A stretch of DNA of 64,000 bases. Origin: Marivita sp. S6314 (GTDB taxonomy: Bacteria; Pseudomonadota; Alphaproteobacteria; Rhodobacterales; Rhodobacteraceae). The stretch is from NCBI RefSeq assembly GCF_023015985.1, contig NZ_JALKAO010000003.1:62001-126000 (forward strand), written 5' to 3'. A program made the position numbers and the translations under genes. Position 1 is the first letter of the stretch, and every line of letters begins with the position of its first letter. Below are positions 3,127 through 27,974 of this stretch, piece after piece. Below the pieces are notes generated by a model. That model did no database searches. It saw only the letters and a program-made list of their open reading frames with translations, and had not been told where the DNA came from.

Positions 3127-3146
3127 GCGTTTTGTATATGAAACGC
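3127..3146. promoter_or_regulatory. inverted repeat, candidate IclR operator
   Basis: Perfect 6-bp arms GCGTTT and AAACGC separated by 8 bp (TGTATATG). It ends 7 nt before the first possible start of the IclR gene and lies in the 90-bp divergent region in front of the bicupin operon. The position suits autoregulation plus control of the oxygenase genes. A second short palindrome, TTTC-AGG-GAAA, lies just upstream at 3112-3122. Confidence 0.5.
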
Positions 3147-3153
3147 GAGGGCC

Positions 3154-3894: not shown

Positions 3895-4027
3895 GTCTGG
3901 GCATTGCGGATTGGAGGGCCACCCTCTGATGGACTCGAGTGCCGCGTCGGTGAAACGACGTGATCGAATGCGCAACAAGCCATTGGCCGGATGTCACATT
4001 CGACAGACGTCGTTCGGCAGGACCTGA

Positions 4028-5359: not shown

Positions 5360-5384
5360 GGGTCTCTCGATCTTAGCAGGATTG

Positions 5385-5415
5385 AAAAAAAGGGGCGGCC
5401 TGATGGCCACCCCTC
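5385..5415 (-). terminator. rho-independent terminator after the NCS2 permease
   Basis: Read leftward: a GC-rich hairpin with 9-bp arms (one G-U pair) and an ATCA loop, followed by seven T residues. It is the strongest terminator in this half of the window and separates the xdh-permease unit from guaD. Confidence 0.88.
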
Positions 5416-5423
5416 GTGTTGGG

Positions 5424-7025: not shown

Positions 7026-7064
7026 GACGGTCTCCTCCTCTGATCGGACGGGTCTTTTGGCCGG

Positions 7065-7946
7065 TCAGGCCAATCTCCCTTCCCGTCCTTGTTGACTGCC
7101 CGAGATGGGCGACTCTGGTGCCCATTGCGGGGCGGCTGCGGCAGTTTCAGAGGTCAATTCAGCCATCACTTCTGCGGCCACGAAGGCCGCAATGACGCTG
7201 GGCCGCTTGTCGCGGCTACCGCTTGCCCCGATGGGGCAATTCAGATGTCGGGTGGTCTGGCCGTCACAGTTATTGTGCGCCCAGTTCTTGAATTTCGCGC
7301 GCTTCGTTGCCGATCCGATCATGCCGACATAGGCCGCATCACCGCGTTCAAGCGCGGCCGAGGTCAGCAGGAAATCAAGTGCATGGTCGTGGGTGAGCAC
7401 GATGAACGCGCTGCCTGCAGGGGCGTTCCAGATGTCGGCCTCTGGCAAAGCACTGATACGGGTTTCGACATTGGCGGTATTGAGCGCGATTTCTTCGGGC
7501 CTTGTGTCGATCAGCACGCAGTTGACTGGCATGTGCTGGAACAGATTGGCCAGCGCGCGTCCGACATGACCGGCGCCCAGAACGTAGACATGCGGCAAAG
7601 CGGCGTCTGTCTGGTGCGCCCGATCCTGTGCTGCGCGCTTGTCCGAGGCGCGCATACGGGTAAGCCGCATCTCAACCCGCCCACCGCAACACTGTCCGAT
7701 TTCAGGGCCAAGCGGCATGTCCAAATCGCGCTGCAGCGTCCCGTCCCGCAGCATGTGGCGCGCGGCATCAATGGCGAGATATTCCAGCTGGCCGCCGCCA
7801 ATGGTGCCCCAGAGCGCTTGAGACGTTACAAACATCTCGGTCCCTTCGTTCCGCGGGGACGACCCCCGCACACGTGTCAGCGCGATGCGGATCACCGAAG
7901 GGTGGCTTGCGAGAAACTCGGACAGGGAGGCGGTTGAGAGGGACAT
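7065..7946 (-). CDS. xdhC: xanthine dehydrogenase accessory protein XdhC
   Basis: 293 aa. The N-terminal XdhC/CoxI domain has ALTRVRGSSPR and GTIGGGQLEY. The C-terminal Rossmann-like domain has YVLGAGHVGRAL and IGSATKRAKF. XdhC binds molybdenum cofactor, supports its sulfuration and inserts it into the XdhB subunit. The gene starts 3 nt after the xdhB stop and precedes the permease, so it belongs to the same operon. Confidence 0.93.
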   Translation of the reverse strand: MSLSTASLSEFLASHPSVIRIALTRVRGSSPRNEGTEMFVTSQALWGTIGGGQLEYLAIDAARHMLRDGTLQRDLDMPLGPEIGQCCGGRVEMRLTRMRASDKRAAQDRAHQTDAALPHVYVLGAGHVGRALANLFQHMPVNCVLIDTRPEEIALNTANVETRISALPEADIWNAPAGSAFIVLTHDHALDFLLTSAALERGDAAYVGMIGSATKRAKFKNWAHNNCDGQTTRHLNCPIGASGSRDKRPSVIAAFVAAEVMAELTSETAAAAPQWAPESPISGSQQGREGRLA

Positions 7947-7949
7947 GGA

Positions 7950-10268: not shown

Positions 10269-10284
10269 CTCTCGACTCCTTGTC

Positions 10285-11748
10285 TCAGGCGATGGCGAGT
10301 TGAACGGGCGCGTCTGTCTGCGCGTCCTGTTCGAGGAAAAAGCGGCGCAGAAGGTTCTGGGCCGAGAGCATCCGGTACTCCGAGGACGCGCGCCAATCCG
10401 TCAGCGGTGAAAAATCCTCCGCGAGGGCATCAGCCGCGGCCTCAAAGCTGTCCCGTGTCCAGCGCTGGCCGTTGAGCGCGGCTTCTGCCGCTGTTGCACG
10501 TTTGGGAGTGGCCGCCATGCCGCCAAAGGCGATGCGGGTATTGCTGATCACACCGTCTGTCACACTCATGTGGATGCCAACGGCCACCGACGAAATATCC
10601 TCGTCGCGCCGCTTGGAGATCTTGTACGCCGCGTCCAGATCGTTCGGACCGGGCAGGGGCACCTGAATGCTTTCCACAAATTCACCCGGCGCGCGGTCCT
10701 GCTTGCCGTAGTCGATGAAGTAATCCTGCAAGGGCAGAGTGCGTCGAGTGTCACCACGGCGAAGCGTGATTTCGGCCCCGAGGGCGATCAGCACCGGGGG
10801 TGTGTCCCCGATGGGCGAGCCGTTGGCGATATTGCCGCCCACGGTGCCCATGTTCCGCACCTGCCACCCCGCAATGCGATCCCAATACGGGACCAGGTGT
10901 GGCAGGTGCTTTGACAGGAGGGATTGGCAATCGGTGTAGCTTGCGCCCGCACCGATCTTGAGGAGGGAGTCCTGTCGTTTGACTGTTTTCAATTCGTTCA
11001 GATGACCGGTGAAAATCGCCGGTCCGATGTTGCGCAAGAATTTTGTCACCCAAAGGCCCACATCGGTGGCCCCCGCAACGATGGTCGCGTCCGGATAGGT
11101 CAGAAGACAGTCGGCAAGGTCATCCACGTCAGCGGGGATGATGCTCAGGTTGTCTTCGGGGCCGGACACGATGCGCTGCGTGTCCTGAAGGGACTTGAGG
11201 CGTGCCGTCATCGTGTCGCGTTCGGTGGTCAGGCAATCCGACGCGGGTGTGCCGTAACGCGACACCGCAACCGCCGCCTTGATGATCGGCTCGTAGCCCG
11301 TGCACCGGCAGAGGTTGCCCTGCAATGCGGTTTCAACCTCCCCCACCGTCGGTTCGGGGGTCTGCATCCAGAGCGCGTAGAGCGACATGACAAAGCCGGG
11401 TGTGCAGAAACCGCACTGGCTGCCGTGATGATCGACCATCGCCTCTTGCACAGGATGTAAGCGTCCGTTCGGGCCGGAAAGATGTTCTACCGTGACCACG
11501 TGGCAGCCATTGACCGACGCTAGGAACCGGATGCAGGCGTTGACCGGTTCGTACACGAGGCCCGCGCTACCCAACCGTCCAACCAGAACGGTGCATGCGC
11601 CGCAATCGCCCTCGGCGCAGCCTTCCTTGGTACCGGTCAGTCGGCGTTCAAGCCGCAGGAAATCCAGCAGCGTCTGGCTGGCCGCAACGTCGGCCACCGA
11701 CACGTCAGTGCCGTTGAGGATGAAACGAATGTCACGTCGATAGGTCAA
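10285..11748 (-). CDS. xdhA: xanthine dehydrogenase, FAD/2Fe-2S subunit
   Basis: 487 aa from a TTG start at 11748, chosen because GGGAGG lies 5 nt upstream and translation then begins at TYRRDIRFILNGT as in the family; ATG 11835 would add 29 unrelated residues. The N-terminal plant-type [2Fe-2S] domain (C-x4-C-x2-C in EGCAEGDCGAC) is followed by the second cluster domain (CGFCTPGF and CRCTGYEP). The FAD-binding domain (IVAGATDVG, GGNIANGSPIGDTPP) and the CO-dehydrogenase flavoprotein C-terminal domain follow. It transfers electrons from the Mo site to NAD+. Confidence 0.94.
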   Translation of the reverse strand: MTYRRDIRFILNGTDVSVADVAASQTLLDFLRLERRLTGTKEGCAEGDCGACTVLVGRLGSAGLVYEPVNACIRFLASVNGCHVVTVEHLSGPNGRLHPVQEAMVDHHGSQCGFCTPGFVMSLYALWMQTPEPTVGEVETALQGNLCRCTGYEPIIKAAVAVSRYGTPASDCLTTERDTMTARLKSLQDTQRIVSGPEDNLSIIPADVDDLADCLLTYPDATIVAGATDVGLWVTKFLRNIGPAIFTGHLNELKTVKRQDSLLKIGAGASYTDCQSLLSKHLPHLVPYWDRIAGWQVRNMGTVGGNIANGSPIGDTPPVLIALGAEITLRRGDTRRTLPLQDYFIDYGKQDRAPGEFVESIQVPLPGPNDLDAAYKISKRRDEDISSVAVGIHMSVTDGVISNTRIAFGGMAATPKRATAAEAALNGQRWTRDSFEAAADALAEDFSPLTDWRASSEYRMLSAQNLLRRFFLEQDAQTDAPVQLAIA

Positions 11749-11839
11749 AGTTGCCTCCCAATCGCCAAGTCCGGCTGTGATGGTGAACCGACCATAGACG
11801 CAACAATTCGAGCGAAAAATCGCTGTAAACGGCAAATAC

Positions 11840-11858
11840 TTTCAACAGATCGTTGAAA
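11840..11858. promoter_or_regulatory. LysR-type operator between xdhA and its regulator
   Basis: Perfect inverted repeat TTTCAAC-N5-GTTGAAA. It lies 92 nt upstream of the xdhA start and 45 nt upstream of the divergent lysR start, the classical place for a LysR box (it contains T-N11-A). Confidence 0.65.
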
Positions 11859-11902
11859 ATAGACTTGCTGCTTGGCATCCTTCCGGTGGGGAGGAGCGAC
11901 AC

Positions 11903-12805
11903 ATGTCGTATATTGAAAGCCTGCGTGTCTTTGTCCGTGTGATGGAGCTTGGCAGCATTACGTCGGGTGGCCGTGATCTGAGGCTGACCCCCGCGGTGTC
12001 AAGCAAGCGTCTGAAAGAGCTTGAGAAACATCTTGGCGTGCGTTTGTTCAACAGAACAACACGCTCCATGACGCCGACAGAGGTCGGCACCGTGTTTTAC
12101 GACGAGGCAAGAGCCGTCTTGCAGGCGCTTGACCATGCCGAAGCCCGCGTCGCCAGTTTTTCCGATGCACCGCGCGGCGCGCTCCGCATCACGGCTCCGC
12201 TTGGGGTCGGACGCCGGATTGTTGCACCGTTGGTTCCCGAATTTTCCGAATCCTATCCGGACACAGAGATTCGGATGCGCCTGTCGGACCGCAAGGTCGA
12301 CATCATGGCCGACGGGCTCGACATCGCGTTCTTTGTCGGAGAACCCAGCGATTCCACGATGAAACTGCGCAAATTCGCGGATTGTGACCGGGTCTTGTGC
12401 GCCTCGCCCGAATACCTGTCGCGCTGTGGAACGCCGATGACGCCGGATGACTTGCTGGACGCCACGCACAACTGTCTTCTGCTACGGTATCCCAGATCGC
12501 CTGAATATTTCTGGACGGTCCGGACAGATATGGGGCCCCGGAAGCTGGAGGTTCGGGGCAAGTTTGATGCCGATGACGGTGATGTGCTGACGGATTGGGC
12601 GGTGGCCGGGCGGGGAATCGTCAATAAGCCCCGTTTCGATGTGCGCGAGCATCTGGAGGCCGGGCGGCTTGTCGAAGTGTTGCCGCACACCCCTCCGATG
12701 CCCACGATCTTCGGCTGTCTGTATCCGCACAAAAAGCTTCAGGACCCGAAGGTGCGATTGTTCGTCGACCATGTTGCGCGGAACAGCAAACGCCACTTTG
12801 TCTGA
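11903..12805 (+). CDS. LysR-family regulator, probably of the xdh operon
   Basis: 300 aa. N-terminal winged HTH (SLRVFVRVMELGSITSGGRDL, then PAVSSKRLKELEKHLGVRLFNRTTR) and C-terminal periplasmic-binding-like effector domain. The ribosome site GGGGAGGAG precedes ATG 11903. It is divergent from xdhABC, with a palindromic box in between, so it most likely activates purine oxidation; the inducer is unknown. It ends 29 nt before the convergent Cds1-like gene. Confidence 0.92.
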   Translation: MSYIESLRVFVRVMELGSITSGGRDLRLTPAVSSKRLKELEKHLGVRLFNRTTRSMTPTEVGTVFYDEARAVLQALDHAEARVASFSDAPRGALRITAPLGVGRRIVAPLVPEFSESYPDTEIRMRLSDRKVDIMADGLDIAFFVGEPSDSTMKLRKFADCDRVLCASPEYLSRCGTPMTPDDLLDATHNCLLLRYPRSPEYFWTVRTDMGPRKLEVRGKFDADDGDVLTDWAVAGRGIVNKPRFDVREHLEAGRLVEVLPHTPPMPTIFGCLYPHKKLQDPKVRLFVDHVARNSKRHFV

Positions 12806-12834
12806 CGTAACGACGCCTCGCACCCCGATACGGA

Positions 12835-13884
12835 TCAGTCGAAATCCAGTTCCAACGCCCTGAGATGGGTCTGACACTCCCCGATGCACTCTGCGACCCA
12901 ATCGGGATTGTAATAGGTGTCGAGATACCGCTCGCCGCTGTCGCAGAGCAGCGTCACGATCGAGCCGCGTTGACCCGCATCTTGCATCTGCTTGGCAACC
13001 TGAAGCACGCCCCACAGATTTGTGCCCGTCGACGGGCCGGGTCTGCGCCCGATCCGTGTTTCAAGCCATTGCATGGTCGCGACACTTGCAGCGTCTGGCA
13101 CCCGGATCATGTCGTCGATCACGTCTGGTTGGAACGAATGTTCGACCTTTGGCCGCCCGATCCCTTCGATGCGGCTGGACATCTCGGACGTCAGACTGCG
13201 ATCTCCACATTGATAGCTGTCAAAAAAGACCGAGTTTTCCGGATCCACCACCGTAAGCCGCGTGTCATAACCCTTGTAGCGGATATAGCGCCCGATGGTG
13301 GCCGATGTCCCGCCGGTGCCCGCGCTCATGATGATATGCGCCGGGATCGGATGGGGTTCGTGCTCCATCTGGGTGAACAGGCTCTCGGCGATGTTGTTGT
13401 TGCCGCGCCAGTCCGTGGCCCGTTCGGCGTAGGTGAACTGATCCATGAAATAGCCGCCGATCTTGTCGGCCAGTGCGACGGACGCATCGTGCATCTGCGG
13501 CGCGCTTTCCACGAAGTGGATCTGCCCGCCAAAAAACTCGATAAGCCTGATCTTGCTCCGCGCCGTGCTTTTGGGCAGGACGGCGATAAACGGCACCCCA
13601 ATCATTCGGGCGAAATAGGCCTCTGACACCGCCGTGCTTCCCGAAGAGGCTTCGACAATTGTTGTGCCTTCGGTGATCTTGCCGTTGCACAGCGCGTAAA
13701 GAAACAAGGACCGCGCGAGGCGGTGTTTCAGGCTTCCGGTAGGGTGCGTGCTTTCGTCCTTGAGATAGATATCAACGCCCTGAAGACGCGGCGCAGGCAG
13801 CTTGAACAGATGGGTGTCAGCAGACCTGTGCGCGTCGGCGTTGATCTTTCCGATTGCGTCGTTCACCCAAGTGTTCATGTACAT
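12835..13884 (-). CDS. PLP-dependent enzyme, Cds1-type L-cysteine desulfhydrase (cysteine synthase fold)
   Basis: 349 aa, fold-type II PLP enzyme of the cysteine synthase/beta family. The Schiff-base Lys is in [10 protein letters not shown] (about residue 53), the substrate loop is [15 protein letters not shown], and the phosphate-binding glycine loop is [15 protein letters not shown]. The length, the [13 protein letters not shown] segment and the long C-terminus fit the mycobacterial Cds1 subgroup, which releases H2S and pyruvate from cysteine, better than CysK. Starts are ATG 13884 or ATG 13878. It is flanked by two LysR genes with no obvious operon partner. Desulfhydrase activity is inferred from subgroup likeness only. 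Confidence 0.75.
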
Positions 13885-15783: not shown

Positions 15784-15804
15784 GGTATCTTGTTCTTGAA
15801 TATC
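15784..15804. promoter_or_regulatory. LysR-type box 1 (kynU)
   Basis: GGTAT-N11-ATATC. The sequence TTGAATATCCAG across its right half is identical to the one in box 3 at the lysR-DHDPS promoter. It lies about 200 nt upstream of the kynU ATG. Confidence 0.6.
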
Positions 15805-16001
15805 CAGTTCTGCCCAATGCGGGGGCGTTGGCAGATCGTCCGATGTACATGAGCCAAAGTAAAACGGGACAGTGGACGGCCTGCCGCAAAACCGCGATAC
15901 CCCACAGGCAGATATGCTTGCGCGCGCGCCAGATCACCGTCCGAGGACGTGCCATGCATCGCGCACCGCAGGCAAAGACACACACGTTGAGAGGATAAGA
16001 C

Positions 16002-17198
16002 ATGACTGATTTCGAATGGACACGGCAGCAATTCGATCTGCCAGAGGGCATGATCTATCTGAACGGCAATTCGCTTGGCCCGATGCCGCGCGAGTCTTTG
16101 CCCGCCATGACGCGTTTTCTAAATGACGAATGGCGCACCGAGTTGATCAAGGGGTGGAACACCAAGAACTGGTTCATGCAGACCAACACGCTGGGGGATC
16201 GTGTCGGACGGCTGATCGGCGCGGCCGAGGGGACAACCGTTGTCGGCGACACGCTCTCGATCAAGGTGTTCCAGGCGGTTGCTGCCGGGATGGCGATGGT
16301 GCCGGATCGCAAGGTGATCCTGTCGGATAACGGCAACTTCCCGACCGATCTCTACATGGTCGAAGGGCTGATCAAGCTCAAGGACGCAGGCTATGAGCTG
16401 CGCGCGCCCGATCCCGAGGATGTGCTGGACAGCATCACCGAAGAGGTCGGCGTGGTGATGATCACCGAAGTGGATTACCGTACAGGCCGTCGCCATGACA
16501 TGAAGGCGATTGTTGAAAAGGCCCACGCCAAAGGGGCTGTCGTTGTCTGGGATCTGGCGCATTCTGCAGGCGCGGTGCCTGTCGATGTGGGCGGCACGGA
16601 TGCGGATTTTGCCATTGGCTGCACCTATAAGTACCTCAACGGCGGCCCCGGTGCCCCGGCGTTTATCTATGTTGCCCCCCGGTTGCTCGACACGGTCGAG
16701 CCGTTCTTGTCGGGCTGGTACGGTCACGAAGCCCCCTTTGCCTTCGACACGGACTACCGCCCGATGCCGGGCAAAATCGAACGGATGCGCATTGGCACGC
16801 CGTCGATTGCGTCTTTTGCGTTGCTGTCGGTGGCGCTCGATATCTGGGACAAGGCGGATATGGACGAGGTTCACGCCAAGTCCATCGAATTGTCCGAATT
16901 GTTCATCCGCGAAGTTGAAGCCCGCTGCGCCGGTTTGACGCTTGTCAGCCCGCGCGATCCACATTCGCGTGGCAGCCACGTTTCGTTCGCCTTTGAGCAG
17001 GGCTATGCCTGCATGCAGGCGTTGATTGCTGACAACGTGATCGGTGATTTCCGTGCGCCGAACGTGATGCGCTTCGGGATCACCCCGCTGTTTGTCAGCG
17101 AGGCGGATATTCTGGGTGCGGTGGACAAGCTTGAACGCATTCTCAGTGAAGAGCGCTACAAGGAAGATCAGTTCCAGAAACGCTCTTTGGTGACGTAG
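16002..17198 (+). CDS. kynU: kynureninase
   Basis: 398 aa, the family length. It is a PLP fold-type I enzyme that cleaves kynurenine (or 3-hydroxykynurenine) to anthranilate (or 3-hydroxyanthranilate) and alanine. The N-terminal IYLNGNSLGPMP, the VWDLAHSAGAVPVD aspartate and the PLP Lys in CTYKYLNGGPG are diagnostic. The SGWYGH and RIGTPSI segments also match. The start is ATG 16002 after GAGAGGA. No tryptophan dioxygenase or kynurenine formamidase lies nearby, so kynurenine may be imported or made elsewhere. It is monocistronic, followed by a terminator. Confidence 0.96.
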   Translation: MTDFEWTRQQFDLPEGMIYLNGNSLGPMPRESLPAMTRFLNDEWRTELIKGWNTKNWFMQTNTLGDRVGRLIGAAEGTTVVGDTLSIKVFQAVAAGMAMVPDRKVILSDNGNFPTDLYMVEGLIKLKDAGYELRAPDPEDVLDSITEEVGVVMITEVDYRTGRRHDMKAIVEKAHAKGAVVVWDLAHSAGAVPVDVGGTDADFAIGCTYKYLNGGPGAPAFIYVAPRLLDTVEPFLSGWYGHEAPFAFDTDYRPMPGKIERMRIGTPSIASFALLSVALDIWDKADMDEVHAKSIELSELFIREVEARCAGLTLVSPRDPHSRGSHVSFAFEQGYACMQALIADNVIGDFRAPNVMRFGITPLFVSEADILGAVDKLERILSEERYKEDQFQKRSLVT

Positions 17199-17225
17199 AG
17201 CCAGACACAATCGCTATCATTCGGA

Positions 17226-17258
17226 AACAGCTCAGGGAAAACTCTCTGGGCTGTTTTC
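17226..17258 (+). terminator. terminator of kynU
   Basis: Hairpin AACAGCTCAG ... CTGGGCTGTT (10-bp stem with one G-U pair) running into TTTT, 27 nt after the kynU stop. Confidence 0.75.
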
Positions 17259-17403
17259 GCTATTGCGGCCTTGCGGTGCCGATACTGATGCGCTGATTGC
17301 GACCGGTTTGTTCCCTCTGCCGTGTGGGCAGACCTATCAGATTGCAGCGACCGACGGTCTGTTGTCGGATCAAGTCACCCGTTCCGTTCGCCCTTATTTA
17401 CAG

Positions 17404-17437
17404 CAAAAGGTTCGACGCCCCTTCGGGCATCGAACCT
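17404..17437 (-). terminator. terminator of the aldehyde dehydrogenase gene
   Basis: Read leftward: 12-bp stem GGTTCGATGCCC / GGGCGTCGAACC (one mismatch) with a 4-nt loop, followed by TTTT. It lies about 60 nt past the stop. Confidence 0.75.
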
Positions 17438-17497
17438 CACGCGCAATTGCGCATCACGACAGCGCTTGAAGTCGCGCCTGGCCGATCCCAAAGTCCC

Positions 17498-18934
17498 TCA
17501 GACGATCTGCATGCTGTGAGAGATGTTCTTGACGTTCATGTAGTTCTCCAGCCCTTCTGTCCCGCCCTCGCGGCCATAGCCGCTGGACTTGACGCCGCCA
17601 AACGGGGTTTCCGGCAACGAGGCCTCCAACGTATTGAACGACAGGTTGCCGGCTTCGACCTCGTTCGTCATCTGGTCGACGTAGTCGGCGCGATTGGTGA
17701 ACCCGTAAGCGGCTAGCCCAAAGGGCGTGGAATTTGCCTTCGCAATCGCGTCGTCCAGCGACGTGACAGGATTGATGACCGCAAGCGGACCAAAGGGTTC
17801 TTCCTGCATGACCTTTGCATCGTCCGGCACATTGGCCAGAACCGTGGGTTCAAAGAAATACCCCTGATTGCCGTGCCGACCGCCACCGGCCAGAACCTCT
17901 GCCCCCTTGGCGCGGGCGTCTTCGACCAGCGCTGTCAGCGCGGGCACGCGGCGGTCATTGGCCAGCGGTCCCATGTCCACGCCGGGTTCAACGCCGTTGC
18001 CCACAACTGTCGCTTTTGCACGTTGGACAAAGGTATCGACAAAAGGCTGGTAGATGCTTTCATGCACGAAGAACCGGGTGGGAGAGGTGCAGACCTGCCC
18101 GGCATTGCGGTATTTGCGGATGGCGCTGCTGATCGCGGCCTTTTCGACATCGGTGTCTTCGCAGACAATCACCGGGGCATGACCGCCCAGTTCCATCAAC
18201 ACGCGGGTCATGTTCTCAGACGCAAGCGTGGTCAGGTGTCGGCCTACGGCGGTTGAGCCGGTGAAGGCAACTAGGCGTACTGGGTCTTGCGCAATCAGGT
18301 GGCTGGAGATCTGGGCAGGCTCACCAAAGACGAGGTTCAGCACACCTGCGGGCAGACCCGCATCGTGGAACGCTTCGACAATATGTTGCGCGCCTGCGGG
18401 GGTTTCCTCGGCCGCTTTGAGGATGATCGAACACCCGCTGGCCAGCGCACCGGCAATCTTGCGGCATGGCTGGCTCATCGGGAAGTTCCAGGGCGACAGG
18501 CCCAGAACCACGCCAACCGGTTCATGATGCACCACGTAGCGCACGCCATGGGCAGAGGGGATCACGCGACCATAGGTGCGCACGGCTTCGCCTGCGTCCC
18601 ATTCGATGAATTCGGCACCACGGATGACTTCAAGCCGGGCTTGGGACAGTGGTTTGCCATGTTCGGCAGTGATTGACTGGGCAATTTCTTCCTGCCGGTC
18701 GCGCAACAGCTTCGCAGCCCGGAGCATCACATCCGCCCGGTCACGCGGGGCGGTGCGGCGCCAGATGCGGAAACCCTCTTCTGCGGCTGTCAGCGCATCG
18801 TCCAGGTCGGAAATCCCGGCGCAGGGCAGGCGACCGATTTCGGCCTCTGTTGCGGGGTTGACCACCGCCATGTCGTCAGAAGTCTTGCGCCATGCGCCGC
18901 CGATATACAGTTTCAACTCGGGATATGTGGTCAT
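17498..18934 (-). CDS. NAD(P)-dependent aldehyde dehydrogenase (succinate-semialdehyde dehydrogenase-like)
   Basis: 478 aa, ALDH superfamily. The oxyanion Asn is in SPWNFPMSQP, the general-base Glu in LMELGGHAPV and the catalytic Cys in NAGQVCTSPTRF. The closest overall type is GabD-like. The context (kynU, 3-hydroxyanthranilate dioxygenase) makes a semialdehyde of ring-cleavage origin, such as 2-aminomuconate semialdehyde, a candidate; alpha-ketoglutarate semialdehyde is another, given the nearby DHDPS-family gene. The start ATG 18934 follows AGAGGG. A LysR-type box lies 80 nt upstream. Confidence 0.85.
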   Translation of the reverse strand: MTTYPELKLYIGGAWRKTSDDMAVVNPATEAEIGRLPCAGISDLDDALTAAEEGFRIWRRTAPRDRADVMLRAAKLLRDRQEEIAQSITAEHGKPLSQARLEVIRGAEFIEWDAGEAVRTYGRVIPSAHGVRYVVHHEPVGVVLGLSPWNFPMSQPCRKIAGALASGCSIILKAAEETPAGAQHIVEAFHDAGLPAGVLNLVFGEPAQISSHLIAQDPVRLVAFTGSTAVGRHLTTLASENMTRVLMELGGHAPVIVCEDTDVEKAAISSAIRKYRNAGQVCTSPTRFFVHESIYQPFVDTFVQRAKATVVGNGVEPGVDMGPLANDRRVPALTALVEDARAKGAEVLAGGGRHGNQGYFFEPTVLANVPDDAKVMQEEPFGPLAVINPVTSLDDAIAKANSTPFGLAAYGFTNRADYVDQMTNEVEAGNLSFNTLEASLPETPFGGVKSSGYGREGGTEGLENYMNVKNISHSMQIV

Positions 18935-19013
18935 GATGCCCTCTTGAATTCGGATGTTGGCTCCGAAGGTCACATGGGGGCGGCCATTACCTCAACCGAA
19001 TTGAACGGATACA

Positions 19014-19034
19014 GGTATCGGTTTCTGTGATACC
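19014..19034. promoter_or_regulatory. LysR-type box 2 (aldehyde dehydrogenase)
   Basis: GGTAT-N11-ATACC, also a perfect inverted repeat with 6-bp arms (GGTATC / GATACC). It is 80 nt upstream of the aldehyde dehydrogenase start and abuts the stop codon of the upstream lysR gene. Confidence 0.65.
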
Positions 19035-19985
19035 TTACTGCTGGATCGCGGCGGCCTCCTCGCGCAGCGCTTGCAGGAACGCGGTGCCTGCCGGAGACAG
19101 GCTGTTATCGCCCCGGTACGAGACACCGACAGGACGCCCTCCGAACGGGACATCCCAGTCAATCGCCGTCAAAAGCCCCGCTTCGATGTCCAGCGCGGCA
19201 ACATGGGCGGGCAGCAGGCCGATCAGATCGTGGGATCGCAAAAGCGATCGGTTTGCGAGGTATGACACGGATTCGATCACGGTTTTCGGCAGATATTGCC
19301 CCTGTTTGACAAAGAACTGATCCGTCTGACGCCGGAGCGTTGTTTCAGCGGGCGGCAATATCCACCCGAACGGCTTGAGCTGTTCGAACGAAATACTGGC
19401 GCGTTTGGCCAGCGGGTGCTGATTCCCCGCGACAACCATGACCCGTTCATCAAAGAACTTTTCCTGTTCGATCTTGGCGCGATGCCTGTGGCTGGGCAGG
19501 CGTCCGACGATCATGTCGATCTCACCTGACCGCAGGGCGGGGATCAGTGCTTCGTTTGTGCCTTCGACAATCTTGACCGCGACATTGGGCCGGTCGTTCA
19601 GCAGGCGCTGGATCGCGCGCGGCAGCAGCCGGGGGGACGCGGCAAGCAGGGTTCCCACGACGACGCGCCCGCTGTTGCCTTCGTTCAGGTCATCCAGTTC
19701 CTGCGCGGCGGTGGAGACCTGGGCAAAGATCAGCTTGCCATGTCGGATCAGTGTTTCGCCGAATATGGTCGGAACGACGCCACGGTTGGTGCGCTCGAAC
19801 AATTGGACTTCAAAGTCGATTTCGAGATCCTGGATCATCTTGGTGGCTGCAGGCTGTGAAATGCCAAGATCGCGCGCGGCGTGCTGGATATTGCCGTGCT
19901 CTCCTACTTTCACAAGCAATCGAAGTTGCCGCAGCTTCAGCCGGGTGAGGGCGCGATCAACGATACGGCTGTGGTTCGACACCAT
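19035..19985 (-). CDS. LysR-family regulator, probable controller of the kynurenine/3-hydroxyanthranilate block
   Basis: 316 aa. HTH: LRLLVKVGEHGNIQHAARDL with ISQPAATKMIQDLE, then LFERTNRGVVPTIFG. This resembles the GbpR/GalR-type LysR subgroup that binds small organic acids or sugars. The effector domain carries GVSYRGDNSLSP near the C-terminus. It lies between the aldehyde dehydrogenase gene (same strand) and the DHDPS-family gene (divergent). Four similar boxes around this block make it the best candidate for the common regulator. Confidence 0.9.
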   Translation of the reverse strand: MVSNHSRIVDRALTRLKLRQLRLLVKVGEHGNIQHAARDLGISQPAATKMIQDLEIDFEVQLFERTNRGVVPTIFGETLIRHGKLIFAQVSTAAQELDDLNEGNSGRVVVGTLLAASPRLLPRAIQRLLNDRPNVAVKIVEGTNEALIPALRSGEIDMIVGRLPSHRHRAKIEQEKFFDERVMVVAGNQHPLAKRASISFEQLKPFGWILPPAETTLRRQTDQFFVKQGQYLPKTVIESVSYLANRSLLRSHDLIGLLPAHVAALDIEAGLLTAIDWDVPFGGRPVGVSYRGDNSLSPAGTAFLQALREEAAAIQQ

Positions 19986-20018
19986 GGGTGTTCCTTACGT
20001 CGTGGTCACAGCGAAGAT

Positions 20019-20038
20019 AAGAGAATTTCCAATCTCTT
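20019..20038. promoter_or_regulatory. additional inverted repeat in the lysR-DHDPS region
   Basis: AAGAGA-N8-TCTCTT, perfect 6-bp arms, directly left of LysR-type box 3 and 34 nt upstream of the lysR start. It may be a second site involved in autoregulation. Confidence 0.4.
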
Positions 20039-20039
20039 T

Positions 20040-20060
20040 GCTATAGATTTTTTGAATATC
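20040..20060. promoter_or_regulatory. LysR-type box 3 (lysR / DHDPS-family gene)
   Basis: GCTAT-N11-ATATC in the divergent promoter region, 55 nt from the lysR start and 88 nt from the DHDPS-family start. Confidence 0.65.
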
Positions 20061-20147
20061 CAGATAATCCTGTGCCTGCTGGCTTTTGTTCAGTCGGCGC
20101 GGTTTAGTGCCGCCAAACTGAACGCCTTGATCCGCCGGAGCTCCAAC

Positions 20148-21101
20148 ATGAAATATGCAAAGCAAGACGCCAAAGCCTATGCGCGTGAAACGATGCGCGG
20201 CATCTGGGCCGCAGCGCTCAATCCGTTTGATGACGACCTGGCATTGAACGAAGCCGGTCTACGCAAGAACATCCGCCACTGGATCGACGATCTGCACATC
20301 CAGGGCCTGTTCATCGCTGGAAAGCAGGGCGAGTTCTGGTCGATGTCGCTGGAAGAGCGCAAGCGCAACATGACCATTGCCGCAGATGAGTGCGGCGACA
20401 ATGCGGGCACGATCATGTCGATCTCGGATCAGAACGTGAATACGGTGCTGGAACTGGGGCGTCATGCACAGGATTGCGGTGCGGATTACGTGGTGGTGCA
20501 CGCACCAATGCTGAGCTTCTGCAGCGACCGTGACGAGGTTTTGTACAATTACTACAAGTACCTGTGCGACCGGCTCGATATCGGTATCGCGATGTGGAGT
20601 CACCCGGACAGCGGCTACCTGATGGAGCCGGAAACCTGCGCCCGTATCGCGGAGCTGCCCAACATCATGGCGATCAAATACTCCGTCCCGCGAGATATGT
20701 ACGCGCGGCTGACCAAGCTGGTGGGCGACAAGATCCTCGTATCCACATCGGCTGAACCGGAATGGCTCGACAATATCGAAGAATTGGGTTGGCAGCTTTA
20801 TCTGTGCTCCTCGCCGCCCTACCAGCTTCAGACCGCCAATGATCTGCGGATGCACGAGTACACCGAACTGGCCTTTGCCGGAAAATTCGAAGAGGCGCGG
20901 CGCGTGCGTGACAGTCTTGATCCGGTGCGCCGCGCGATCCACGACACCAAGCCGGGCGGCAAGCCCACGGCGCATGGCAAGTACTGGCAGGAGCTGTTGG
21001 GGCAAGTCGGCGGGCGCGTGCGCCATCCGATGCTGGAATTGACCGAGGCCGAAAAGGCCGCCACGCGGAAGGCCTTTGAGGAGTGCGGCCTGACACTGTG
21101 A
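20148..21101 (+). CDS. DHDPS/NAL-family class I aldolase or hydratase-aldolase of unknown substrate
   Basis: 317 aa (beta/alpha)8 pyruvate-aldolase-superfamily protein. The Schiff-base Lys is retained in IMAIKYSVP (about residue 179). The canonical G-T/x-T-GE motif reads GKQGEFWSMSLEER, and the region where DHDPS has the catalytic Tyr (PYYN) reads HAPMLSFCSD. It is therefore unlikely to be DapA itself. The start ATG 20148 follows CCGGAG. It is followed after 10 nt by an EamA transporter and shares a promoter region with the LysR gene. Its role could be aldol cleavage or dehydration of a ring-cleavage product; that is inference. Confidence 0.8.
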   Translation: MKYAKQDAKAYARETMRGIWAAALNPFDDDLALNEAGLRKNIRHWIDDLHIQGLFIAGKQGEFWSMSLEERKRNMTIAADECGDNAGTIMSISDQNVNTVLELGRHAQDCGADYVVVHAPMLSFCSDRDEVLYNYYKYLCDRLDIGIAMWSHPDSGYLMEPETCARIAELPNIMAIKYSVPRDMYARLTKLVGDKILVSTSAEPEWLDNIEELGWQLYLCSSPPYQLQTANDLRMHEYTELAFAGKFEEARRVRDSLDPVRRAIHDTKPGGKPTAHGKYWQELLGQVGGRVRHPMLELTEAEKAATRKAFEECGLTL

Positions 21102-21111
21102 CACCCGGCCG

Positions 21112-21996
21112 ATGATCGGCGAGATCTACGCCCTGTTGGCGGCGGCGGCTTATGGAGTGGCCGGCGTCGCCATTGCCAAAGGCAAAGCCGGGGCGCGGGG
21201 CGACAACGGGGTGTTTCTGTCGGTCCTGGCCACCGCAGTGTTGTCGGGCGTGATCTGGGTGCTTTGGGGCAGCGTGCCTGTCAGGACCCTTGTTGAGACC
21301 GAAAACCTCGGTCCCATCGGTGTTTTTGTGCTGGCAGGGCTGATGTCCACGGTCTTTGGCCGCATGTTCATGTTCCGCGCAACTGAACAGACGGGGCCTG
21401 TCATGGCCAGTCTGCTCAGGCGCCTGACGCCTGTTTTCGGTCTGCCGCTGGGCTATGTCGTTTTGTCGGAACTGCCAGATGTCGCCACCCTGGCAGGCGC
21501 GTCAATGGTGATGGCGGCGGTCATTTTCTACCTGACCCCAAGCAAGGTTGATACGCGCAGGATCAGCCGGATCGGGATTGCCCTTGGTGTGGGTTCGGCC
21601 CTGGCCTATGCGCTGGCGTACACCCTTCGCAGCGCTGCTTTGGTGACATTGCCCGACGCGGCGCTGGGGACGTGTATCGGTGCGCTCGCCGGAGTGGTCT
21701 GGATCGCGTGCGGGACGGCGCTGCGCAGGGGTGGGCGCAGATCGTTTCAAGCCCTGCTTATCGACCGGAACCGCTGGCATATGCTCGCGGCCTTTGCGCT
21801 GAGCGCCGGTCAGTTCCTGCAGTTCCTTGCCTTGAAAAGCACCTCCGTGGTCAGCGTGGCGACACTCGGAACGCTTGAGGTGTTCTTCACGGCGCTGATC
21901 CTGCGATGGGCCACCGGCCAACGCCCCGTCAGGCTTTGGCGTTTGGTCGGGGCAGGGGGCGTGGCTCTTGCCGGGACCGCGATCATGCTGGCATGA
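21112..21996 (+). CDS. EamA/DMT-family transporter
   Basis: 294 aa with ten hydrophobic helices in two EamA repeats; the first repeat has FGRMFMFRATEQTGPVMASLL and the second has FALSAGQFLQFLALKSTSVV. Drug/metabolite transporters of this kind usually export amino acids or metabolites, although some import. It starts 10 nt after the DHDPS-family stop with a weak ribosome site, so it is in that operon. A role in moving an aromatic or amino-acid intermediate is inferred from context. Confidence 0.85.
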   Translation: MIGEIYALLAAAAYGVAGVAIAKGKAGARGDNGVFLSVLATAVLSGVIWVLWGSVPVRTLVETENLGPIGVFVLAGLMSTVFGRMFMFRATEQTGPVMASLLRRLTPVFGLPLGYVVLSELPDVATLAGASMVMAAVIFYLTPSKVDTRRISRIGIALGVGSALAYALAYTLRSAALVTLPDAALGTCIGALAGVVWIACGTALRRGGRRSFQALLIDRNRWHMLAAFALSAGQFLQFLALKSTSVVSVATLGTLEVFFTALILRWATGQRPVRLWRLVGAGGVALAGTAIMLA

Positions 21997-22050
21997 CGCA
22001 CCGCGCCTTTGCTGACGGCATGGCGCTTTGTCCAAAAAATGATTGCTTTT

Positions 22051-22071
22051 GCTATCAGGAAATCGGATATC
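22051..22071. promoter_or_regulatory. LysR-type box 4 (3-hydroxyanthranilate dioxygenase)
   Basis: GCTAT-N11-ATATC, 87 nt upstream of the dioxygenase ATG, at nearly the same distance as box 3 is from its gene (88 nt). The gap between the EamA stop and this gene is 161 bp, which fits a separate promoter. Confidence 0.65.
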
Positions 22072-22157
22072 GAAATTCCCGGAAATCCATATTTCTTTGT
22101 GCGTGACCTGCCTAGGGTATGATCAAATAACATGTGCCACAGCCATTGGGGATCACG

Positions 22158-23736
<1,579 letters not shown>

Positions 23737-23799: not shown

Positions 23800-24339
23800 A
23801 TGATCGGCCGAATTTCAGCTACATGGGCGCGGTTCGAACTTGCGCTGGCCTCAATTCTTGCGGCTGCGATCACCGCCTTGATCCTCCTCAATGTTCTGAC
23901 ACGCAGCCTTGGGGCGGCGCTGTACTGGGTCGATGAACTGGCGATCTATGCAATGGCGTGGATGACGTTTCTTGGCGCGTCGGCAGGCATTCACTACGGG
24001 CATGCCGTGGCGGTGACGATCCTGACGGACAGCCTGCCACCCCCCCTGAAAACGCTTGTCGCCAAGCTGGTCGATGTGATCGTGCTTGTCTTTGCGCTGC
24101 TGATGGTCTGGTTCTGCTGGCGCTGGTTCGCACCGCTGGCGCTCGCACAGCACGGGTTCGACACAAAGGCGTTTCAGGGCGCGACCTTCAACTTCATCTA
24201 TGCGGAACCAACAAGCACACTTGGGTTCCGGAAATACTGGGTGTGGCTGGTGATGTGGGCTTTCGCCTTTGGGGCCGCGCTGCACGGCTTTGCGAACCTG
24301 TTCGGACCGGCACACAGACCCGAGGTGTCCTCCACATGA
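23800..24339 (+). CDS. dctQ: TRAP transporter small permease
   Basis: 179 aa, four hydrophobic helices, DctQ family (RSLGAALYWVDELAIYAMAWMTFLG with the conserved ELA/W segment and HYGHAVAV). The start is ATG 23800 behind GAGGGCAGG; upstream codons overlap the hairpin. Its stop overlaps the dctM start (ATGA). It pairs with DctM in the inner membrane. Confidence 0.92.
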   Translation: MIGRISATWARFELALASILAAAITALILLNVLTRSLGAALYWVDELAIYAMAWMTFLGASAGIHYGHAVAVTILTDSLPPPLKTLVAKLVDVIVLVFALLMVWFCWRWFAPLALAQHGFDTKAFQGATFNFIYAEPTSTLGFRKYWVWLVMWAFAFGAALHGFANLFGPAHRPEVSST

Positions 24340-25595
24340 CCCCGATCATTTTTGCGTTCAAACTGATGATCGCTGTGCCCGTGGCGCTTGTTTTGGCGCT
24401 GACGGCGATCTGGTACATCTGGGAAAGCGACAACGTTGTTCTGTATGACAGCTTTGCGCAAAAGATGTTTTCGGGGCTGGAAAACTACGGATTGCTGGCG
24501 ATCCCGCTTTTCATGCTTACCGGTGAAATGATGAACGAGGGCGGCATGACACGCCGCCTGATCAACGCCGCACGTGTGTTCGTGGGCGGGTTTCGCGGCG
24601 GGCTTGCCTATATCAACTTGCTGGCCAACATGTTCATGGCGGCGATCATCGGATCGGCCACTGCTCAGATTGCCGTGATGGCCCGTGCCATGACACCGGA
24701 AATGGAAAACGAAGGCTATTCGCGTGGATTTGCGGCGGCAACGACAGCGGCAGGGGGGTTGCTGGCCCCAGTGATCCCGCCGTCGATGATGTTTGTGATC
24801 TTCGGCGTTCTGGCGCAGATCCCCATCGGCGACATGTTCCTTGCCGGGATTTTGCCAGGGCTATTGTTGTTTGTCGCATTCGCGGGCGTGATCTTTGTCA
24901 TCGGCCTGATCCAGGGATTCCCAAAAGGCACCTGGTTCACCGGACCGGAAGCCCGATCAGCGCTGCTGTCCTGTCTGCCCGCTATGCTGATCCCTGTTGC
25001 CATCATCGGCGGCATCCTGTTTGGCATCGCGACACCAACGGAATCGGCGGCAATTGCATCCCTGATTGCCTTTCTTGTTGGCTGGCTGATCTACGGTGAG
25101 CTGGAGCCGCAAAAACTGTTCGTTCTGTTCAAACGCACGGCGATCAACGCGTCGATGGTGATTTTCATGATCGCTGCGGCAAACGTCTTTGGTTGGGTCA
25201 TCATTTACGAAGCCCTGCCGCAGAAACTGGCCACGCTGATCACGTCGATCACAAGCGACCCGTTCATGTTTCTGCTGATCGTCAACCTGATCCTTCTGCT
25301 GGTCGGCATGTTGATCGACGGGATCGCAGCCGTGATCCTCATCACGCCGATCCTGCTCCCGATTGCCATGAACGACTACAGCATTGACCCGTTTCACTTC
25401 GGTGTCGTGATGTGTCTCAACCTCGTGCTGGGTCTTCTCACACCGCCGGTCGGCGTTGGGCTCTACATCGCGTCCTCGATGAGCGGCGCAAGCCCGGGTC
25501 AGATCCTGCGCTCGCTCTGGCCCTTCCTTCTGGTCGTCGCGGCAGTCCTCGTCCTGCTCAGCCGGTTTGAATGGCTGTCGACGGCACTGATTTAG
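24336..25595 (+). CDS. dctM: TRAP transporter large permease
   Basis: 419 aa, about 12 hydrophobic helices, DctM family. Signatures include LLAIPLFMLTGEMMNEGGM, IIGSATAQIAVMARAM and GLLAPVIPPSMMFVIFGVLAQ. It forms the Na+-driven translocation channel with DctQ. The start overlaps the dctQ stop by 4 nt. It is the last gene of the rightward kynurenine-related block and converges on the M20 hydrolase gene. Confidence 0.95.
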   Translation: MTPIIFAFKLMIAVPVALVLALTAIWYIWESDNVVLYDSFAQKMFSGLENYGLLAIPLFMLTGEMMNEGGMTRRLINAARVFVGGFRGGLAYINLLANMFMAAIIGSATAQIAVMARAMTPEMENEGYSRGFAAATTAAGGLLAPVIPPSMMFVIFGVLAQIPIGDMFLAGILPGLLLFVAFAGVIFVIGLIQGFPKGTWFTGPEARSALLSCLPAMLIPVAIIGGILFGIATPTESAAIASLIAFLVGWLIYGELEPQKLFVLFKRTAINASMVIFMIAAANVFGWVIIYEALPQKLATLITSITSDPFMFLLIVNLILLLVGMLIDGIAAVILITPILLPIAMNDYSIDPFHFGVVMCLNLVLGLLTPPVGVGLYIASSMSGASPGQILRSLWPFLLVVAAVLVLLSRFEWLSTALI

Positions 25596-25694: not shown

Positions 25695-26942
25695 TTACAC
25701 TCTGTCCGCCCGTTCAACGACGCTGTGCAGCAGGACGTTCAACCCGGCGCGAAAGCTTTCCGGCGTGCAGAACTCTTCGTTGTTGTGGGTGATGCCGTCT
25801 TTGCACGGTGTAAAGATCATTGCGGTGGGGCAGTGTCGCGCAAGGAAATACGCGTCGTGGCCGGCTTGGGATTGCAGATCGCGGTGGTTGAACCCCAGAC
25901 GCGCGGCGTGCGCACGGATCGAAGCCACCAGCCCCGCGTCAAAGATATCTCCGCCCCAGTGCCATTCGTCTTCAATCTTGTAGGAACAGCCACAGCGCGC
26001 TGCGGATTCTGACGCGGCGCGGCGTAAACGCTCTGCCATGAGGCCCGCCGTTTTTTCATCGGGGTGACGCACGTCGCAGACCGCTTCGGCATGGTCTGAC
26101 AGGATGCCCGCCTTGTTGGGCCAGGCCACCAATCGCGCCGCCGTTGCTTTGCCGTCATAGGCCGCATAGGCCCAGCCGATGTCATCGGCCATGGTCAGCC
26201 ACCGGGCGCCTGCCGCAAGCGCATTCTGGCGTTGGTCCATCGGTGTCGGGCCGGTATGTGCGGTCCTGCCTGCAAAGCTGACGCGCATTCCGTGGCTGGG
26301 ATACCCTGCCGTGACAATGCCGATATCGCGCCCTTCGGCGTCGAGGATGGGACCTTGTTCGATATGAAGCTCGAAATACGCATCAATCGGGCGAGGCGCG
26401 CAGGGCGCATCGCCCAGGTACCCGATGCGCGCAAGCTCTGCGCCAAAACTCAGCCCGTCGTCATCCACAAGCCCGTGAACCCAGTCAGTGGTGTAGGCCC
26501 CGACGAAAGCGCCGGACGCCGACATCGGAGGAGAGAACCGCGCGCCTTCCTCGTTTGTCCAATTCACGATTTCGAGGGGGCGTCGCGTCGCGTGGCCAAG
26601 GTCGTTCAGTGTCCGCACGACCTCAAGCGCCGCCAGCACGCCGGCAATCCCGTCAAACCGACCGCCATTGATCTGGGTATCAAGGTGGCTGCCAACAAGA
26701 ACCGGCGGCACGTCGGGCTCAGTCCCCTCTCGACGGGCAAAGATGTTGCCGCAGGCGTCCACTGTCACGGCTAGCCCGGCCTCTTCGCACCATGTCACGA
26801 ACAGGTCGCGCATCTCGCGGTCGGCGTCTGACAAGGCAAGCCGGGACAGCCCGCCGGGGCGGCCCACCCCGATCTGTGCAGACGCATCAAGGGTCTGGTT
26901 AAACCGCGCAAGGTTGGCGGTGCTGTCCGGCGCGTAACTCAT
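25695..26942 (-). CDS. M20-family Zn-dependent amidohydrolase (allantoate amidohydrolase / N-carbamoyl-L-amino acid hydrolase type)
   Basis: 415 aa, the size of AllC/HyuC/beta-ureidopropionase enzymes. The first metal ligand is in VGSHLDTQINGGRFDG, the catalytic and metal Glu pair in NWTNEEGARF, and further ligands in HIEQGPILD and near the C-terminus (ITHNNEEFC). The lid domain carries AHTGPTPMDQRQ. It hydrolyses N-carbamoyl or ureido groups; which substrate is used cannot be told. It starts 3 nt after the deacylase stop and is the last gene of the leftward transporter operon. AllC in purine breakdown is possible, but the xdh genes are 15 kb away. Confidence 0.85.
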   Translation of the reverse strand: MSYAPDSTANLARFNQTLDASAQIGVGRPGGLSRLALSDADREMRDLFVTWCEEAGLAVTVDACGNIFARREGTEPDVPPVLVGSHLDTQINGGRFDGIAGVLAALEVVRTLNDLGHATRRPLEIVNWTNEEGARFSPPMSASGAFVGAYTTDWVHGLVDDDGLSFGAELARIGYLGDAPCAPRPIDAYFELHIEQGPILDAEGRDIGIVTAGYPSHGMRVSFAGRTAHTGPTPMDQRQNALAAGARWLTMADDIGWAYAAYDGKATAARLVAWPNKAGILSDHAEAVCDVRHPDEKTAGLMAERLRRAASESAARCGCSYKIEDEWHWGGDIFDAGLVASIRAHAARLGFNHRDLQSQAGHDAYFLARHCPTAMIFTPCKDGITHNNEEFCTPESFRAGLNVLLHSVVERADRV

Positions 26943-26945
26943 GGA

Positions 26946-27974
26946 TCAGCTGATCTCTTCTCGGAAGGCTGTCAAAAACGCCTCGGCATTGGCTTTTAAA
27001 GACGGGCCCAGATAGCCACCTTCCTGGATCAGGACGGTCGGGACGTTCATCGCCGCAATCCGTCGCGCCATATCGGCAAAGTCCTGTGCGTGCAGGTTGA
27101 CGGCGGCCAGCGGATCATCTGCGGCCATGTCAAAGCCCAGCGAGACGACAAGCGCTTCGGCCCCGAAATCCGTGATTGCACCGATCCCCCGGTCAAGGGC
27201 CGCCATCACTTCGGCAGGTCCGTCGCCCATGTTCAGCACTTCGTTGAGGGTTGCACCGGTGCCATCGCCTTCGCCGGTTTCGTCCGCATAACCCAGGTAG
27301 AATGTCGCATAGACCGCCGGGTCAGGGTGCAGGGAACAGAAAAACACATCGCCGCGGTCATACAGGATATCGAGCGATCCGTTCCCGGTATGCACGTCCA
27401 CATCCAGCAACGCGACCTTGTCCCATTTGCCCCGCATGTGGTGCGCCGCGATGCAGGCGTTGTTGTAAAAGCAGAACCCGTTGGAGCAATCCTTCATCGC
27501 GTGGTGCCCGGGTGGGCGGCTCAGGCCATAGGACGCGCGGCTGCCGTTCATGACGTCCTGCGCGGCTGTGATCGCCGTCTGCGCCGACCAATAGGCCGCT
27601 TCATAGGTGTTTTCGGTCAGCGGTGTGGATGTGTCGGTCATCCACCATCCCATCGCTCCGTTGATGTCCTTGGGACAGCGCCCGCGTCGCGTCCCGGGGT
27701 GGCGTGTTGGAATGGCCAGCGCGCCGTCCGGGGCATCGGCGATGAAGCGTGCATAGGCGTCGGTGAAGAAATCGACATAGTCCGGATCATGCACCGCCTT
27801 GATGGGCGCGATTCCGAAATCATCCGGTGTTTCCACGGGGAAGCCGTTTTCCAACAACATGTCGCGAATCAGGATGGCGCGTTCGGGCTGTTCGGGGTGC
27901 GGCATTGGAGATCCGCCGCGAAAGTAGGTTTCGGGTTTGTGGCCAAGCTGGCGTTCGTCAAAAATAGCTTTCAT
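26946..27974 (-). CDS. histone-deacetylase-family deacylase (acetylpolyamine amidohydrolase-like)
   Basis: 342 aa, the length of bacterial acetylpolyamine amidohydrolases. The catalytic His pair is in RPPGHHAMKD, the Zn ligands in DVDVHTGNG and in the later SLGFDMAADDP, and the transition-state Tyr in EGGYLG. It should remove acyl groups from an N-acylated amine such as acetylputrescine. It lies between a hydroxyacid dehydrogenase and an amidohydrolase in a transporter operon, and a class III aminotransferase that could use a freed diamine lies 9 kb away. The substrate is inferred from family only. Confidence 0.87.
   Translation of the reverse strand: MKAIFDERQLGHKPETYFRGGSPMPHPEQPERAILIRDMLLENGFPVETPDDFGIAPIKAVHDPDYVDFFTDAYARFIADAPDGALAIPTRHPGTRRGRCPKDINGAMGWWMTDTSTPLTENTYEAAYWSAQTAITAAQDVMNGSRASYGLSRPPGHHAMKDCSNGFCFYNNACIAAHHMRGKWDKVALLDVDVHTGNGSLDILYDRGDVFFCSLHPDPAVYATFYLGYADETGEGDGTGATLNEVLNMGDGPAEVMAALDRGIGAITDFGAEALVVSLGFDMAADDPLAAVNLHAQDFADMARRIAAMNVPTVLIQEGGYLGPSLKANAEAFLTAFREEIS

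Follow-up and report, generated by a model that had tools for sequence, protein, structure and literature searches.

The window analysed here, a stretch of 64,000 nucleotides from the genome of Marivita sp. S6314, contains four copies of a 21-bp box, GNTAT-N11-ATANC, beside genes for kynureninase (kynU), an aldehyde dehydrogenase (ALDH), a lyase of the dihydrodipicolinate synthase (DHDPS) fold, and 3-hydroxyanthranilate 3,4-dioxygenase (HAAO). Judged from sequence, these boxes are highly likely to be bound by the LysR-type regulator whose gene lies at 19035-19985. This protein would activate a catabolic 3-hydroxyanthranilate regulon, with which some marine bacteria probably degrade this tryptophan by-product and whose lower steps seem not to use 2-amino-3-carboxymuconate semialdehyde decarboxylase (ACMSD). 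The regulon itself is very probably real. The evidence comprises the boxes and their conservation, together with their association with the LysR gene and the conserved promoter spacing in relatives. The boxes are arranged as follows:

15784..15804, plus strand: box 1, upstream of kynU, 197 nt from its ATG (16002); the least supported of the four
19014..19034, minus strand: box 2, upstream of the ALDH gene, 79 nt from its ATG (18934)
20040..20060, plus strand: box 3, between the DHDPS-like gene (87 nt from its ATG, 20148) and lysR (54 nt from its ATG, 19985)
22051..22071, plus strand: box 4, upstream of the HAAO gene, 86 nt from its ATG (22158)

The box pattern is its own reverse complement; the reversed pattern and 100 dinucleotide shuffles served as controls. 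A scan of the window finds exactly the four sites that the first-pass annotation had located, against 0.15 expected, and none of the 100 shuffles reached four or more. Boxes 2 to 4 had been placed 80 to 88 nt upstream of their genes; the placement holds, but the figures were off by one (79, 87, and 86 nt). Both the pattern scan and a pattern-free dyad search agree with the proposal that the boxes follow the T-N11-A rule of LysR sites. The complete genome (3.77 Mb) contains 23 sites, versus 8 for the reversed pattern, and four of the 23 are concentrated in the 6.3 kb of this cluster. All four are intergenic, with box 2 adjoining the lysR stop codon, whereas 17 of the other 19 lie inside a mechanically called open reading frame (ORF) of at least 180 amino acids; two lie outside such ORFs (L121 and L132). 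Chance origin is ruled out by these counts and by the placement of the other sites, and in this genome the motif is not equally frequent at unrelated promoters. (Boxes 1 and 3 do share the element TTGAATATCCAG, as had been noted. However, it is missing from the kynU box of a relative, L039, and therefore was given no weight; origin of the two boxes from one duplication is not supported.)

Conservation was examined in the best 80 of 116 candidate loci with an orthologue of the DHDPS-like gene: 59 with a LysR gene within the fetched locus, 14 without, and 7 incomplete upstream. The window pattern was used unchanged, and a box was counted if exact and within 260 nt upstream. In the LysR loci, exact boxes precede 39 of 41 ALDH genes, 53 of 54 genes of the aspartate dehydrogenase (AspDH) family, 40 of 49 HAAO genes, and all 16 genes for the large subunit of a molybdenum hydroxylase (MoXDH). 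For the DHDPS-like gene the figure is 42 of 59; 17 LysR loci have MoXDH between the box and DHDPS. Of the 12 ALDH, AspDH, or HAAO promoters in LysR loci that have no exact box, 10 have a seven-of-eight match. Other genes are seldom preceded by a box: lysR itself, 8/59; the TRAP transporter genes dctP, 1/24, dctQ, 0/31, and dctM, 0/29; and the EamA-type transporter gene, 0/22. The reversed pattern occurs upstream of two of 49 HAAO genes and of no other gene counted. Conservation with these genes in relatives, one of the checks set in the first-pass annotation, is borne out.

Loci without LysR look quite different: exact boxes precede 0/7 ALDH, 1/10 AspDH, 0/13 HAAO, 1/14 DHDPS, 1/6 MoXDH, and 0/3 kynU genes. 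(In loci incomplete upstream, the counts are ALDH, 0/5; AspDH, 0/2; DHDPS, 1/7; and HAAO, 1/2.) Taken by locus, all 60 rows with LysR, the window included, have a box, versus two of the 14 rows without, which sustains the nomination of the LysR protein as the regulator. A search for any dyad of the form 3-N(0..20)-3 in the 200 nt upstream points the same way: TAT-N11-ATA is the most enriched dyad in each LysR-locus promoter set (ALDH, 41/41; HAAO, 45/49; AspDH, 53/54), and is nearly absent from the LysR-less sets (0/7, 0/13, and 1/10, respectively). The boxes of one genome are not simple copies of each other, since their spacers share on average only 35% of letters (217 pairs).

HAAO genes at a distance from the cluster provide a further view. 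A whole-genome search on behalf of 12 loci, most of them without a nearby HAAO gene, found the gene in 11. Where HAAO lies outside the fetched locus in a LysR genome, an exact box precedes it in eight of eight cases (L053, L054, L059, L079, L082, L085, L096, and L106), 58 to 83 nt before the start as extrapolated from each match. Among them, L139 from the genome of L059 is not a blind test, because its coordinates are those of the earlier-scanned L021; L058, whose HAAO gene lies within the fetched locus, was left out of the count. Three HAAO genes from the LysR-less L086 and the incomplete L098 have no box (0/3). The whole-genome search found no HAAO in L069, which does have LysR. In a second sample of 12 short HAAO loci (HAAO is present in 12 of 147 genomes, own included), nine, again including our own, have an upstream box.

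Promoter geometry suggests how the boxes act. Counted from the box start, and profiled across boxed ALDH (39), HAAO (40), and DHDPS (42) promoters, a T at position 26 is present in 100%, 100%, and 98%, respectively. All 39 ALDH promoters have TTG at positions 40-42. The DHDPS promoters favour T40 (88%), T41 (76%), G42 (90%), and G43 (76%), and the HAAO promoters T40 (95%), A64 (90%), and T68 (95%). In the window, good elements accompany box 2 and box 4:

18990..18995, minus strand: TTGAGG, candidate -35 element for ALDH, at positions 40-45 from the box start
22113..22118, plus strand: TAGGGT, candidate -10 element for HAAO, at positions 63-68 from the box start

Read as -35 and -10 elements with a 17-nt spacer, the conserved positions put the box centre near -64. 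For LysR activators, the site recognised by the protein is expected to have its centre near -65 of the promoter that is activated; a box centre about 64 nt before the predicted start would agree with this.

Protein-DNA binding, activation, the inducer, start sites, and operon extents are inferred, as in the following scheme. The LysR protein would act as an activator, bound at a box whose centre lies some 64 bp before the transcription start and next to the -35 element. It would turn on four transcription units: ALDH; the DHDPS-like gene, with that of the EamA transporter; HAAO with the TRAP genes; and kynU. Box 3 perhaps also tunes expression of lysR itself. The inducing signal would be 3-hydroxyanthranilate or one of its derivatives, with kynurenine or another compound as further candidates.

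Several observations weigh against this scheme. Box 1 has little comparative support: among nine kynU genes in LysR loci, two have a box of their own (L039 and L063), and the remaining seven are downstream of a codirectional gene that has a box. The proposed four-box kynurenine and 3-hydroxyanthranilate regulon is supported, though least so at kynU. At boxes 1 and 3 of the window, the match to -35 and -10 elements is weak, and a -10 element is clear only in HAAO promoters. Three of the 12 short HAAO loci (L025, L026, and L027) have no box. Conversely, two loci without LysR do have one: L070 (at L070:6808) and L104 (at L104:8922). Moreover, LysR presence and boxes both are inherited. When mapped onto a tree of 74 DHDPS-like proteins, the presence of LysR has changed at least eight times, of which three are forced by supported branches (the bootstrap is unsettled). 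Supported branches provide only three independent contrasts, none of them to the contrary (sign test p 0.25). The Fisher values, 6e-8 for HAAO, treat loci as independent and are a guide only.

The boxes of L070 and L104 invite another reading, in which the motif is a promoter element or belongs to a different regulator, the neighbouring LysR gene being incidental. This is improbable. The other 12 of the 14 LysR-less loci lack the box although they retain the same genes; among the eight LysR-less loci with titles of Rhodobacteraceae type, boxes precede 0/2 ALDH, 0/7 HAAO, 0/6 AspDH, 0/8 DHDPS, and 1/6 MoXDH genes. The predicted box-to-promoter spacing, too, would be that expected of a LysR activator. 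A regulator for the L070 and L104 boxes may reside elsewhere in those genomes.

The regulator gene, its predicted targets, and the genes presumed to be cotranscribed with them are:

16002..17198, plus strand: kynU, kynureninase; over the TIGR01814 cut-off
17498..18934, minus strand: ALDH, succinate- or 2-oxoglutarate-semialdehyde dehydrogenase-like; PF00171, nearest PDB entry 5x5t
19035..19985, minus strand: PcaQ-like LysR-type regulator that presumably binds the four boxes; PF00126 and PF03466
20148..21101, plus strand: lyase of the DHDPS/N-acetylneuraminate lyase (NAL) fold, class I aldolase type; PF00701, from alignment and from model and fold searches
21112..21996, plus strand: EamA-type transporter, presumed to share an operon with the DHDPS-like gene; PF00892
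22158..22721, plus strand: HAAO; over the NF009763 and TIGR03037 cut-offs
22750-23736, 23800-24339, and 24336-25595, plus strand: TRAP transporter DctP, DctQ, and DctM, presumed to be in the HAAO operon

These assignments vary in precision. HAAO is secure, at 253 bits with NF009763 (cut-off 220) and 223.6 bits with TIGR03037 (cut-off 145.95), and the other three kynU matches in the genome are only 24-26% identical. ALDH reaches no NCBIfam cut-off among the best 25 of its 44 matches; it scores 442.8 bits with a succinate-semialdehyde model versus 292.2 bits with a hydroxymuconate-semialdehyde model, both below cut-off. The DHDPS-like protein lies below all seven NCBIfam cut-offs listed. K177 (in IKYS) and the GKQGE motif are invariant across 19 aligned sequences, and the predicted structure is a DHDPS/NAL barrel (mean pLDDT 84.3; TM 0.80-0.90 among the 50 matches listed). 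Fold, GxxGE motif, and a catalytic lysine placed by alignment with 4woq all are consistent with a class I (Schiff-base) aldolase; sequence and fold searches did not tell the neuraminate-lyase and DHDPS types apart. (On the other strand beyond the TRAP genes, at 25695-27974, are an allantoate amidohydrolase-type gene, over the NF006769 cut-off, and a histone-deacetylase-family gene, PF00850.)

What pathway might these genes encode? The AspDH-family gene, absent from the window, is present in 68 of the 80 loci. It usually lies between lysR and the box that precedes DHDPS or MoXDH; in most relatives it occupies the position between lysR and box 3. The L028 protein exceeds the cut-offs of both NF009828 and NF009827. 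The 12 loci without AspDH comprise five with LysR (L042, L047, L076, L092, and the incomplete L097), two without, and five that are incomplete. MoXDH replaces ALDH: ALDH is present in 54 loci, MoXDH in 23, and both in none, and the three loci with neither (L074, L094, and L097) all are incomplete. The swap needs at least five changes on the best DHDPS tree. Because MoXDH replaces ALDH in this way, never accompanying it, hydroxylation of quinolinate as the purpose of MoXDH is disfavoured. In LysR-less gammaproteobacterial loci (L084 and L104, for example), the genes for ALDH, AspDH, and the DHDPS-like protein stand beside HAAO, a distant kynureninase, tryptophan dioxygenase, and a flavin monooxygenase, and therefore look like a continuation of the 3-hydroxyanthranilate route. 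(The monooxygenase resembles kynurenine monooxygenase, KMO, by position only; its best NCBIfam model is VioC, below cut-off.)

In the product of HAAO, 2-amino-3-carboxymuconate semialdehyde (ACMS), the group C(COOH)=C(NH2)-COOH corresponds to a substituted iminosuccinate in its enamine form, and iminosuccinate is the AspDH substrate type. We tentatively propose that the regulon serves an undescribed, ACMSD-free, and redox-neutral breakdown of 3-hydroxyanthranilate, in which the steps given here would release no CO2. In this scheme, HAAO would convert 3-hydroxyanthranilate to ACMS; ALDH, or the molybdenum hydroxylase of other lineages, would oxidise the aldehyde to 2-amino-3-carboxymuconate; and the Schiff-base lyase, as a hydratase-aldolase acting on a 2-oxo- or 2-imino-3-ene substrate, would hydrate this compound and cleave it by retro-aldol reaction, yielding iminosuccinate and malonate semialdehyde. 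AspDH then would reduce iminosuccinate to L-aspartate, spending the NADH made by ALDH. The ALDH and lyase steps could come in either order. Where AspDH is missing from the locus, as in the window, iminosuccinate might hydrolyse to oxaloacetate or be taken by a paralogue such as G000:C32:52617-53423; only through such hydrolysis or a paralogue does the proposal account for these loci. The cleavage resembles quinolinate synthase chemistry (iminosuccinate plus a C3 unit) in reverse. As far as this chemical reasoning goes, the proposal would use all of the conserved enzymes and balance NADH when ALDH is the oxidant.

Two other purposes deserve comparison. An ordinary decarboxylating route would require an unrecognised substitute for ACMSD, perhaps the DHDPS-like protein itself, with ALDH acting as aminomuconate semialdehyde dehydrogenase (AMSDH). 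Some DHDPS-fold enzymes, such as KdgD, do decarboxylate, and an aldehyde-oxidising enzyme (ALDH or MoXDH) is present in 77 of the 80 loci, the other three being incomplete. This route is doubtful, though: it leaves AspDH without a role, and ALDH prefers the succinate-semialdehyde over the hydroxymuconate-semialdehyde model, if with both scores below cut-off. Far less probable is that HAAO serves NAD synthesis, from tryptophan to quinolinate, rather than catabolism. AspDH does belong to the NadX family, and our genome has tryptophan dioxygenase as well as kynU, with no match to nadA. However, it also has no match to nadC, for which the same model matches 12 of 14 control genomes; it has no clear KMO (the best match to the L078 protein scores 24.6 bits); the ALDH and lyase genes share the HAAO box; and HAAO is followed by the genes of a TRAP transporter. 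A purpose in NAD synthesis is rejected for this genome, which, lacking nadA and nadC matches, probably depends on niacin salvage. With no clear KMO, one guess is that the TRAP transporter takes up 3-hydroxyanthranilate or 3-hydroxykynurenine.

The decarboxylase itself was sought directly. No convincing ACMSD match was found in 36 HAAO-bearing genomes (ACMSD probe, E <= 1e-5), some of them metagenome bins, which may be incomplete. Any match at all was limited to four of the 36, in five places (83, 78, 67, 46, and 27 bits; best identity 31%). By comparison, more distant ACMSD entries in PDB (4igm, 4ofc, and 2wm1) score 245 with this probe, and other decarboxylases up to 70. In our own genome, 99.99% complete, the sole PF04909 protein resembles 2-pyrone-4,6-dicarboxylate hydrolase. 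A PF04909 search of ten genomes gave matches in nine, the L028 genome having none; this family is too broad to name ACMSD.

How do box and genes compare with known systems? The first-pass annotation knew of no description of the motif. Its core, however, is published: PMC5002191, which deals with PcaQ of Sinorhizobium meliloti, gives the LysR-family consensus as T-N11-A, CTATA-n9-TATAG. The motif class therefore was already known, as TAT-N11-ATA is the core of that sequence, held by the window boxes, and the window LysR is PcaQ-like. Unlike the PcaQ box, those of the window and its relatives add an outer G and C and the nearly invariant T26; the LysR protein scores 224.5 bits with the PcaQ model TIGR02424, below the curated cut-off of 303.8; and its putative targets are 3-hydroxyanthranilate rather than protocatechuate genes. 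The outer G and C, the T at position 26, and the gene assignment thus appear to be new.

Bacterial 3-hydroxyanthranilate clusters with HAAO, ACMSD, and AMSDH exist, as they do in fungi; the bacterial ACMSD route is reportedly due to Colabroy and Begley, and a tryptophan-to-quinolinate route to Kurnasov. The fungal catabolic cluster of PMC7842363 encodes HAAO, ACMSD, and AMSDH. The window likewise has HAAO and an aldehyde dehydrogenase, but in place of a convincing ACMSD it has the DHDPS-fold lyase and, in relatives, AspDH. KynR, according to PMC7057948, also controls kynurenine catabolism genes; it is of Lrp/AsnC type, a different family from the window LysR, and its route ends at anthranilate and alanine. 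No description of the regulon or gene set, or of 3-hydroxyanthranilate and aspartate dehydrogenase as one pathway, was found in the titles and abstracts listed, outside subscription papers and regulon databases. Two papers contain both terms, but judging by title neither concerns such a pathway.

The gene set is of greater import than the regulon: HAAO, AspDH (not in the window), the DHDPS-fold lyase, and ALDH or a molybdenum hydroxylase. On this basis, the ring-fission product is predicted to have a new fate. ACMS is the branch-point compound of the kynurenine pathway, and the proposed chemistry, if true, would be a second way of handling it. Genes annotated as DHDPS and aspartate dehydrogenase gain a likely new role from the gene set. 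The occurrence of a dedicated regulon in scattered members of the Rhodobacteraceae and in some proteobacteria of other groups suggests that these organisms use 3-hydroxyanthranilate or its precursors as food. Moreover, the LysR protein and its box could be built into a 3-hydroxyanthranilate sensor.

Finally, several minor observations concern neighbouring genes and related loci. Near HAAO, L060, L068, L071, L074, and L090 have a branched-chain or urea-type ABC transporter where other loci have TRAP, in some cases together with an alpha/beta hydrolase (by ORF reading). L030, a contig classified under a Flavobacteriaceae metagenome-assembled genome, has the same boxes as Roseovarius nubinhibens (L029) and encodes a DHDPS-like protein that hardly differs from the one there; its placement is probably a binning error. 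Elsewhere in our own genome are two AspDH-type genes, 45% and 33% identical to the L028 AspDH. Just outside the window, L134 (G000:C32:48000-62000) contains, within 312-13448, a second AspDH-family gene. Its neighbours, by ORF reading, include a hydrolase, an extradiol-type protein, a short-chain dehydrogenase/reductase, a thiamine diphosphate-type enzyme, an aldehyde dehydrogenase, an FAD monooxygenase, an IclR-type regulator, a TRAP transporter, and a sulfatase. This region is perhaps another cluster for cleavage of a nitrogen-containing aromatic compound.

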